Source: Candidatus Manganitrophaceae bacterium (GTDB lineage Bacteria > Nitrospirota > Nitrospiria > SBBL01 > Manganitrophaceae). From it: DNA of 64,000 nucleotides. The notes beneath the pieces were generated by a model. It saw nothing but the letters and a program-made list of their open reading frames with translations, had not been told where the DNA came from and searched no databases. Of the stretch, positions 14,399 through 64,000 are shown in pieces; within the stretch, counting starts at the first letter, position 1, and each line of letters begins with the position of its first letter. The DNA is taken from contig JACQEZ010000018.1 in assembly GCA_016200325.1 (NCBI GenBank), positions 1 through 64,000 of the forward strand, in the 5' to 3' direction. The translations under genes and the position numbers were made by a program.

Positions 14399-15811
14399 TT
14401 ATAGTTCCATTCCGGCGGGAAGCCGTTTGGGATGGTCGTCGGCCAGATCTTCGAATCGCGTATAGCGGTCTATAAAAGCCATCGGGACATCGCCGATGGG
14501 ACCGTTGCGCTGTTTTCCGATGATGATCTCCGCCAATCCTCTTCGTCCGCAGATGCACTCTCCGTCCCGCGGACATTTACAAGGATCGTACACCTCTTCG
14601 CGATAGATAAAGAGGACGACATCCGCATCCTGCTCAATCGCGCCCGACTCTCGCAGGTCGGCAAGCATCGGCCGCTTCTTTTTTTCCGGCCGTGATTCGA
14701 CGGCGCGAGAAAGCTGGGAAAGGGCGATCACCGGAACGTGGAGCTCTTTGGCCAAGGCCTTCAGAGAGCGTGAGATATCAGAAATTTCTTGCTGACGATT
14801 GTCGGCATCTTCCCGACCCCGCATCAATTGAAGATAATCGACGATGATCAAACTCAGATTGTGTTCCGCTTTCAGCCGGCGCGCCTTCGCCCGCATCTCC
14901 AGAATGGACATTGACGCGGAATCATCGATGAAGATCGGCGATTCACTCAATTTTCCTGCCGCCCGAATCAGTTGCTGCCAATTGTCATTGCCCGGCCGCC
15001 CGAGATAACCGGAACGGATCTTGTGCGAATCGACCCGCGCCTCAGAACAAAGCATGCGGAGAACCAATTGCTCTTTCGACATCTCCAAGCTGAAGACACC
15101 GACCGTTTGGCGGTTCTTAATCGCGACATTTTGTGCCATCCCTAACGCAAACGCCGTCTTTCCCATGGAGGGCCGGCCGGCCACAATGACCAAGTCACCC
15201 GCCTGGAGGCCGGAAGTCATTTTATCCAGATCTTTAAATCCGGTTGGAAGACCGGTCAGCCGCTGCTCCGCCAGTTTCTCGATGATTTCGAACCCCGCTT
15301 TCACCAGTTCTCGCATCGGAACGAAGGTTCCCTGCATCTTTTTGTCGGAGATGGCAAAGATGCTCCGCTCGGCATGGTCCAGCAGATCTTCCACCCGTCC
15401 CTGCGATTCATAACCGACGGTCACGATGTCGGTTGCAATGCTGATCAAATTTCGAAGCAACGCTTTCTCATGAATGATCTTGGCATGCAGCCGGACATTG
15501 GCCGCGGTGGCGACGCTGTTGAGGATTTCCGCAAGGTAGGACGCTCCGCCGACCGCTTCAAGCTGTCCTTTGACGCGAAGATATTCGGTTAAGGTGATCA
15601 TATCCACCGCCTCATTCGACTCATTTAGCTCGAGCAGCGCGGAGAAAAGCTTCCGGTGACTCTCTTTGTAGAAATCGTCCGACCGGAGGATCTCAACGAC
15701 CTTATTAATCGCCTGTTGATCGAGGAGAATTGCGGCCAACACCGCCTGCTCCGCCTCCAGGTTCTGAGGGGGAAGCTTTTGAATCGAAATTTCTGTCGGA
15801 CTCATCGCCAT
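14399..15811 (-). CDS. dnaB: Replicative DNA helicase DnaB
   Basis: A hexameric 5'-3' replication-fork helicase of about 470 residues. The N-terminal domain begins KLPPQNLEAEQAVL, Walker A is GRPSMGKT, Walker B-region is LIIVDYLQLM, and the arginine-finger area ends in KQRNGPIG. The region just before LAEIIIGKQRNGP carries an extra four-cysteine loop, C-x-C-x5-C-x-C (codons 14549-14581), which I do not expect in ordinary DnaB. The start is uncertain because no clear Shine-Dalgarno is visible and two ATG codons lie close together. hisZ ends just upstream. Confidence 0.95.
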   Translation of the reverse strand: MAMSPTEISIQKLPPQNLEAEQAVLAAILLDQQAINKVVEILRSDDFYKESHRKLFSALLELNESNEAVDMITLTEYLRVKGQLEAVGGASYLAEILNSVATAANVRLHAKIIHEKALLRNLISIATDIVTVGYESQGRVEDLLDHAERSIFAISDKKMQGTFVPMRELVKAGFEIIEKLAEQRLTGLPTGFKDLDKMTSGLQAGDLVIVAGRPSMGKTAFALGMAQNVAIKNRQTVGVFSLEMSKEQLVLRMLCSEARVDSHKIRSGYLGRPGNDNWQQLIRAAGKLSESPIFIDDSASMSILEMRAKARRLKAEHNLSLIIVDYLQLMRGREDADNRQQEISDISRSLKALAKELHVPVIALSQLSRAVESRPEKKKRPMLADLRESGAIEQDADVVLFIYREEVYDPCKCPRDGECICGRRGLAEIIIGKQRNGPIGDVPMAFIDRYTRFEDLADDHPKRLPAGMEL

Positions 15812-62488: not shown

Positions 62489-62564
62489 GGGGCTGTAGCT
62501 CAGCTGGGAGAGCGCCTGGTTCGCAATCAGGAGGTCCGGGGTTCGATCCCCCGCAGCTCCACCA
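62489..62564 (+). tRNA. tRNA-Ala (anticodon CGC)
   Basis: A complete cloverleaf of 76 bases: acceptor GGGGCTG with CAGCTCC including the G3-U70 pair that identifies tRNA-Ala, anticodon loop TTCGCAA, T-loop TTCGATC, discriminator A and encoded CCA. A decayed copy of its 3' half lies at 63679-63723. Confidence 0.97.
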
Positions 62565-62863
62565 AAATCAAATCCTTAAATAGCTTTTTCTCTTGTTTCT
62601 TGTCAGAATATCGGCCGTTTTATTCCACCCGCCAGTACGATCATCCACGACAATAGGTCATCACCTCTCGGACCAGAATCTCCACATCTATTTTCATTAG
62701 GCGCCAGGAGAGGGGGAACAACACGGTTGCCCCTTTTTTCTCAGACCTTCGGAAAGTGATGAATACCACAGTTTTAATGAATCTATTACCCAAACACTTT
62801 GAACTCCAATACTCAGGAAAACGGTTTCACCCACATATGCTCTGGACCAACTCGAGGAGCACA

Positions 62864-63235
62864 CTACGCCAGATAAACCACACCCGGAAGATCTTTTAGA
62901 TCGGCATCGCTTGTTATAACCTGGGCATCCTGTTCCCGGGAGGTCGCATACACGATCGCATTGGCCATGGCGATTCGATATTGAAGGCTTAAGTCCGCGG
63001 CCAGGAGCGCAGTCGACGCTGAGAGTGTAATCACCTCCGTGGCATTTAACTGCCCTGCCGCCAGCATCGCGGCCTCTTCTCCCCGATCCCGCTTGATCTT
63101 CTTGTACACCTCATAAAGTACGATCGTGGGGGTCAACAGTTTCCTAGAATCTTTCATGTAGGATTCATAGCGATCCGCAAGCCGGCCCCCGGTGAAAAAC
63201 TCAATCCACCCGCTGGAGTCGATCAATGTTCTCAA
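62864..63235 (-). CDS. vapC: VapC-family PIN-domain toxin
   Basis: A 123-residue PIN-domain RNase, normally inhibited by its antitoxin. Acidic residues are Asp6 (TLIDSSGW), Glu42 (VLYEVYKK) and Asp110 (ITSDADL). The third position, usually Asp in M-A-D-x-I, reads Asn92 (AMANAIVYAT); one G-to-A change would give this. The start is a TTG overlapping the antitoxin stop by 4 bases. Activity is therefore uncertain. Confidence 0.88.
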   Translation of the reverse strand: MRTLIDSSGWIEFFTGGRLADRYESYMKDSRKLLTPTIVLYEVYKKIKRDRGEEAAMLAAGQLNATEVITLSASTALLAADLSLQYRIAMANAIVYATSREQDAQVITSDADLKDLPGVVYLA

Positions 63236-63441
63236 ACACGATCCTCCTTCTCCCGAACACCCTCCTTACCCATTCCTTTTAGAAAACCTTTCATCGACTT
63301 CAGAGAAACCTCCGGGACCAATGTGATCACGCCCCCCTTCACTAAAACCTGTAGCCGTTGCCGGGGGCTGAGATGGAGCTTCTCGCGGATCTCTTTCGGG
63401 ATGACAATCTGGTACTTTGATGAAATCGTTGTCGTAGCCAT
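63232..63441 (-). CDS. vapB: AbrB/SpoVT-type antitoxin of the VapBC module
   Basis: A 69-residue protein with the swapped-hairpin AbrB DNA-binding fold (TTTISSKYQIVIPKEIREKL), here the antitoxin and autoregulator of the downstream toxin. I place the start at the ATG with GGAGGG nine bases upstream. A much longer frame reading back to 63807 would run through the tRNA remnant and is rejected. Confidence 0.9.
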   Translation of the reverse strand: MATTTISSKYQIVIPKEIREKLHLSPRQRLQVLVKGGVITLVPEVSLKSMKGFLKGMGKEGVREKEDRV

Positions 63442-63678
63442 CTCTTCCCTCCATCTTACGCTTGTTCCATCGATAATATTATTGTAAAACGACCTTTGAG
63501 TCAACCATCCTGGAAAGAAACCTCTTTTAGCGCGATGTGACGAAATTGCGACAGAATGATCTCGAGTGAATAAAATGAACTCTAATCCATAGAGTCCATA
63601 CAAACGGAACAGGACCTTAATTGAACAGATAAAAGTGAGAAAACCGGCCGACCCGCCATAAAAAAATAATTCTTTTTT

Positions 63679-63723
63679 TTCGCAATCAGGAGGCCCAGGG
63701 TTCGACCCTCCACAGTTCCACCA
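63679..63723 (+). pseudogene. tRNA-Ala 3' half, decayed duplicate
   Basis: Forty-five bases matching the tRNA-Ala 3' half from the anticodon loop through CCA, with six transitions. Two of the T-stem pairs are broken by the changes and no 5' half precedes it. The sequence can no longer fold as a tRNA. See the integrative-element entry. Confidence 0.8.
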
Positions 63724-63909
63724 GTAGATTCCCGTATATTCCTTCCGCTTCATTCCACGAAAAGCAACGCCTGCAATTGTCAGATCACGTACATTCTTGT
63801 ACGGCAAACTGCACCGCCTTGGATGGAATTTTCTTCCCTACCCCTGCCCTCTCCTTTATTCCGCCGGTAAAAACGCTCCCTTTACAGATGCCGGAGTTTA
63901 ATTCCGAGT

Positions 63910-63925
63910 CGGCATGTCTCTTGCT
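63910..63925 (+). promoter_or_regulatory. Sigma-54-like promoter of the response regulator at the window end
   Basis: CGGCATG-N4-TTGCT has GG (63911-63912) and GC (63923-63924) separated by 10 bases, the RpoN -24/-12 spacing. Transcription would start near 63936, 23 bases before the ATG. The hexamer is one base off the usual TGGCAC. Confidence 0.6.
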
Positions 63926-63958
63926 TTTATTCCAATTGTTTAAATAAGGAGAAGTACC

Positions 63959-64000
63959 ATGGGACAGAAATCGACCATCCTCATCGTCGATGACGAGAGC
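63959..64000 (+). CDS. Response regulator receiver, N-terminus only
   Basis: Fourteen codons read MGQKSTILIVDDES, the start of a two-component receiver domain with the acidic pair DDE. AAGGAGAAG lies just upstream. The output domain is outside the window, so no family can be given. Confidence 0.85.
   Translation, partial: MGQKSTILIVDDES

Follow-up and report, generated by a model that had tools for sequence, protein, structure and literature searches.

A vapBC pair between tRNA-Ala(CGC) and its displaced 3' half: the probable remnant of an integrated element in a Candidatus Manganitrophaceae genome

In a 64,000-nucleotide stretch of Candidatus Manganitrophaceae DNA (the window, meaning the whole stretch analysed), we found an insert bounded by two copies of the 3' end of tRNA-Ala(CGC). 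This insert is probably what is left of a tyrosine-integrase element that entered the tRNA gene and was then mostly lost, with the displaced tRNA copy drifting and the retained VapC toxin becoming defused. The two cores, one of them within the tRNA, form a direct repeat in the same orientation with 39 of 45 identical positions, for which the chance expectation over the whole window and both strands was ∼1.6e-12. The six differences were all transitions, and none fell in the 15 nt that begin at the anticodon loop. ARAGORN called the tRNA and none at the copy, which, read as a tRNA 3' half, has lost two of five T-stem pairs (C49-A65 and A50-C64), while one more pair has become G-U. The cores are separated by 1,114 bp, whose sole gene content is a single VapBC-type pair on the minus strand. 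A sequence-only reading had reported this 45-nt duplication with six transitions at the ends of a vapBC-only stretch, which ARAGORN, the repeat comparison and family searches confirmed, and had described the copy as free to drift, in agreement with the transitions and the lost T-stem pairs.

Table 1. Features of the insert and its flanks in the window, and integration sites in relatives (G002, G005).
Feature	Position	Strand	Basis or remark
tRNA-Ala(CGC), intact; putative integration target and reconstituted attL side	62489-62564	+	ARAGORN; identical tRNA in G001, G002, G004, G005
Putative attL core, anticodon loop (nt 32) to CCA	62520-62564	+	Direct repeat; same 45 nt bounds the G005 228-kb element
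Left non-coding part of insert	62565-62863	.	44% G+C; no homolog found
CAANNNNTTA, just inside left end of insert	62569-62578	+	Also at 4 other insert left ends, same site
vapC, PIN-domain toxin homolog, 123 aa, Asp92->Asn	62864-63235	-	PF01850
Codon AAT, Asn92 of VapC	62960-62962	-	Asp in relatives covering the site
vapB, AbrB/MazE-type antitoxin, 69 aa	63232-63441	-	PF04014, TIGR01439
Right non-coding part of insert, vapBC promoter side	63442-63678	.	39% G+C; homology to relatives ends ∼63504
Putative attR core: displaced 3' half of tRNA-Ala, 6 transitions, T-stem broken	63679-63723	+	Direct repeat
Probable original chromosomal right flank	63724-63958	+	Aligns to DNA directly 3' of the tRNA in G004
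Response-regulator gene start, runs beyond window	63959-64000	+	PF00072 in G005 ortholog
228-kb element at tRNA-Ala(CGC), G005	G005:C1:3364981-3593035 (L036:15026-20000 to L048:1-3035)
tRNA-Ala(GGC), G005	L124:835-910; copy in L125 near 14763		∼34 kb apart
tRNA-Ala(GGC), G002	L126:730-805; copy near 14712		∼14 kb apart
tRNA-Ala(GGC) displaced copy, G002 contig C13	L129 near 384

We compared the site across 58 genomes, six of them from the same genus (the window's own, G000, and G001 to G005). The sequence-only reading had proposed looking in relatives for an empty tRNA-Ala site or a full element with an integrase, and both were found. G004 had a clean empty site, with the tRNA followed directly by the response-regulator leader that in the window lies 3' of the copy; the response-regulator gene was the far-side marker of the site in G002, G004, and G005. 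In G005, an exact second 45-nt copy lay at a distance of 228,055 bp, and the interval is a conjugative element integrated at tRNA-Ala(CGC). Two genes for PF00589 tyrosine recombinases lie next to the distal copy, on the side of the element opposite the tRNA, with the G005 integrase encoded at L036:15249-16460. The element has direct repeats of the CGGTGACCA type at either end and carries a set of F-type transfer genes (TraC, TraG_N, and a coupling protein) together with genes for a primase-like protein, ParB, and ribonucleotide reductase and a type I modification gene. In G014, from the same order, an integrase gene adjoined the same tRNA, the displaced copy was on another contig, and GTGATA-type repeats were common to the element ends; different integrases use tRNA-Ala(CGC) in relatives of the window.

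The remaining same-genus genomes were more varied. G002 had no element at the site, only a ∼160-bp tRNA-tail unit 3' of the tRNA that was also present beyond the distal copy in G005, and G001 had unrelated sequence 3' of the tRNA up to the contig end. In G003, we found the displaced copy alone, on a short contig where its flank is element-like, and a pattern search of this genome did not find a full tRNA-Ala(CGC). The G003 copy directly adjoined the cut C-terminal part of a helicase-like gene (L049:56-970), a gene that the G005 element has at its left end; this junction is either a rearranged element or an assembly join. None of the five other same-genus genomes had a match to the vapBC insert at this site.

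A common boundary connected the window's copy to those of integrated elements. We examined seven displaced copies, from tRNA-Ala(CGC) in G000, G003, G005, and G014 and from tRNA-Ala(GGC), a second integration site in the genus, in G005 and on contigs C3 and C13 of G002. All seven started at tRNA nt 32, where the anticodon loop begins, setting aside 0–2 matching bases 5' of it that are possibly due to chance. The anticodon loop is described as one of three usual integration sublocations in tRNA genes (PMC4383910, PMC8371274). Given an exchange at the anticodon loop, the distal copy would be the original host 3' half, and the broken T-stem would therefore reflect decay after integration. The history that we favor would have begun with an element with a tyrosine integrase recombining at the anticodon loop of tRNA-Ala(CGC), supplying its own tRNA 3' half and pushing the original one to the far end. 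Most of the element, including the integrase and arm-binding sites, would later have been lost, leaving ∼1.1 kb with vapBC, and the displaced 45-nt copy, freed from selection, would have drifted by six transitions. The loss of the third active-site Asp from the retained VapC would have come last.

Apart from vapBC, the insert contained little that could be recognized. Its two non-coding parts were A+T-rich compared with the window (54% G+C; Table 1). A Pfam search of this DNA in ten of twelve frames, all but two minus-strand frames of the right-hand part, returned no family except one at E 0.26. ORF and family searches detected neither an integrase nor transfer genes in the insert, and PF00589 had no match on the window's 65-kb contig (G000 C18). 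Arm-type repeats between the insert ends were likewise not detected, with 8-mers shared between left and right at chance level, in a search controlled with the ends of the G005 and G014 elements, where such repeats do show. A six-frame comparison of the non-coding parts against 700 kb of loci, including the G005 element, gave no credible relic. Across 58 relatives and 295 phylum genomes, all DNA matches inside the insert were confined to 62870-63504, which corresponds to vapBC and its promoter; 42 of the 295 phylum genomes, the window's own included, had such matches, and a DNA comparison with plasmids and phages returned none.

Three short motifs were observed at and around the insert. Of 22 loci, 5 had the CAANNNNTTA motif, and each of these is an insert or probable insert; having been spotted post hoc in the same sequences, it is no more than suggestive as a left-end motif. 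An A7/T7 inverted repeat (AAAAAAATAATTCTTTTTTT, 63660-63679) lies immediately against the displaced copy. A GTACATTCTTGTAC palindrome (63789-63802), located 5' of the response-regulator gene and conserved in G002, G004, and G005, is a possible binding site.

The gene pair resembles type II VapBC toxin-antitoxin modules in gene order, in the 4-nt overlap of vapC and vapB, in its domains (a PIN toxin and an AbrB/MazE-type antitoxin), and in having close relatives in numerous genomes of the class. It differs from them in the VapC active site, where the four PIN acid positions are occupied by Asp6, Glu42, Asn92, and Asp110, so that the third catalytic acid is replaced. Position 92 was Asp in all 31 relatives covering the site (36 loci were compared, five of them without coverage or without a hit). 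The same substitution detoxifies Haemophilus VapC1 in the laboratory: the D99N variant is reported as non-toxic while it keeps VapB binding and binds the promoter in complex (PMC3302801, PMC4229260), and mutation of Asp96 is reported to abolish the toxicity of a Streptomyces VapC (PMC4963828). We equate Asn92 with D99 because of its motif position and a weak alignment of the window VapC to the solved VapC 7by2 (E 0.012). Given the altered third acid, the Asp in 31 of 31 relatives, and the D99N precedent, the pair is probably defused, and by analogy with Haemophilus the window VapC is probably non-toxic with VapB binding retained.

Other positions did not point to general decay. Compared with its relative in G002, vapBC had a dN of 0.15, saturated dS, and intact frames, values indicating that the pair is under purifying selection relative to G002 and is not generally decaying. 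We also considered and rejected general relaxation of vapBC: in a leave-one-out comparison the window departed at two VapC and two VapB columns that were otherwise invariant, but G028 (L060) departed at three of each, so the window was no outlier overall. The sequence-only reading had held that an addiction module persists here; the pair is present with intact frames but has lost the third catalytic Asp of VapC, and "a probably defused VapBC pair persists" is the better wording. We regard it as doubtful, though worth considering, that the pair is a naturally defused toxin-antitoxin system, kept as an autoregulated repressor or as a source of antitoxin against related intact VapBC modules, which G002, a member of the same genus, and many genomes of the class carry. 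On such a reading, the Asp to Asn change would have been acquired after the carrier decayed, and toxicity would have been split from VapB and operator binding.

Close vapBC relatives were found in many genomes of the class, and those in G002, G014, G013, G020, and G028 sit among ordinary genes. In the fetched stretches, no tRNA was found near them, except a tRNA-Cys ∼5 kb off in G013, and of 15 VapC pattern matches in viral contigs none was a relative. Given this setting of its relatives, vapBC may or may not have been cargo of the original element. With no integrase, no arm repeats, and no homology outside vapBC, decay of a large element would be indistinguishable from the arrival of a tiny non-autonomous passenger, that is, vapBC between att sites at about its present size, inserted in trans by another element's integrase. 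Nothing in the insert signals a larger former size, vapBC occurs as a lone module elsewhere, and helpers exist, as different integrases use this tRNA in relatives. We nevertheless consider a passenger unlikely, given that the same unit was found nowhere else among the 58 relatives, the 295 phylum genomes, plasmids, and phages, and that the integrase arm sites which a passenger needs were not visible.

Two further explanations concern the copy itself. It could have arisen by partial duplication of the tRNA or as a tRNA-tail repeat, with vapBC lying between by chance, and units with a terminal copy of the tRNA 3' end are indeed present right after tRNA-Ala in G002, G005, G014, and G019. Those units, however, copy only the last 17–20 nt, and a DNA search of G000 found none, whereas in the window the copied stretch is 45 nt long and begins at the anticodon loop, as do the copies bounding integrase-bearing elements; this explanation is accordingly very improbable. 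tRNAs are known targets of VapC toxins, and the copy, which lies on the vapBC promoter side with 39 of 45 bases kept, could instead have been retained for a present function, as a regulatory element of vapBC or a decoy for the toxin. Against this, the copy lacks the 5' half for an anticodon stem and has a broken T-stem, and VapC is probably inactive. The arrangement was also conserved in no relative: the sequence-only reading had reasoned that relatives with the same arrangement and a fully conserved copy would indicate a functional role, and none of the 58 genomes searched had it. We therefore hold a functional copy to be the least credible of these explanations. The remnant of a mostly lost tyrosine-integrase element is the reading we retain.

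As a scar, the insert is ordinary and, judged from sequence, is best called a CIME-like island remnant, a known kind. Cis-mobilizable elements are described as decayed ICEs or IMEs without integration and transfer genes in which attL and attR are kept, and tandem accretion is known at sites of this type (PMC5704250). The window insert is like them in having two att-like cores, one at each end, at a tRNA whose site is empty in G004, with cargo between them and neither integrase nor transfer genes, but it is unlike them in the six changes of its attR core, the absence of visible arm sites, and its size of ∼1.1 kb. It also resembles the tDNA islands described for Islander, with a regenerated tRNA, a 3' fragment in the same orientation, and a site in the anticodon loop (PMC4383910). 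According to that source, Islander screens its candidates for an integrase gene and a length of at least 2 kb, and the pipeline would thus reject this scar. The sequence-only reading of an integrative-element scar is upheld in part: the empty site and the full elements in relatives support it, but a large ancestor is less supported, given that no integrase relic or arm repeats were found.

The insertion would be younger than the split of G000 and G004, as indicated by the Jukes-Cantor distance of the copy (0.147, 6 of 45 sites), which gathered on one lineage, compared with a distance of 0.62 over 225 sites for the right intergenic flank against G004, spread over two lineages, and response-regulator synonymous sites near saturation (dS 2.4). 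Its age is perhaps ∼0.1–0.5 of that split, a crude estimate given that 45 sites alone were usable.

The tRNA-tail unit is a structured repeat in its own right, ∼115–150 nt long and located directly 3' of tRNA genes (Ala GGC, Ala CGC, Leu TAA, and Ser CGA). It occurred in 14 of the 295 phylum genomes as well as G002 and G005 (loci L086, L087, L088, L089, and L131-L142). Seventeen loci were analyzed, three of them without the unit, and 15 units were extracted, three of them without a parsed tRNA end. At its head, the unit carries the tRNA T-arm in reverse complement. At its tail, 11 of the 12 scored units matched the 3'-terminal 20 nt of the neighboring tRNA, CCA included, at 16–20 positions; for the twelfth (G108), whose upstream tRNA end is degenerate, 4 of 20 matched. 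Folding 11 units together gave a consensus of 27 pairs, six of them with compensatory changes, and in an Rfam scan of four unit loci (L086-L089) no family but tRNA reached gathering score. The unit may be akin to the rtT repeats in the tyrT operon of E. coli and may be of more interest than the vapBC scar.

Within one genus, a single tRNA site presents a series from empty to scar to a 228-kb conjugative element. The scar offers a natural case of a left-behind "addiction" gene that is missing a catalytic residue, and a VapC that is probably defused is relevant to the question of whether addictiveness is what lets toxin-antitoxin pairs outlast their carriers.
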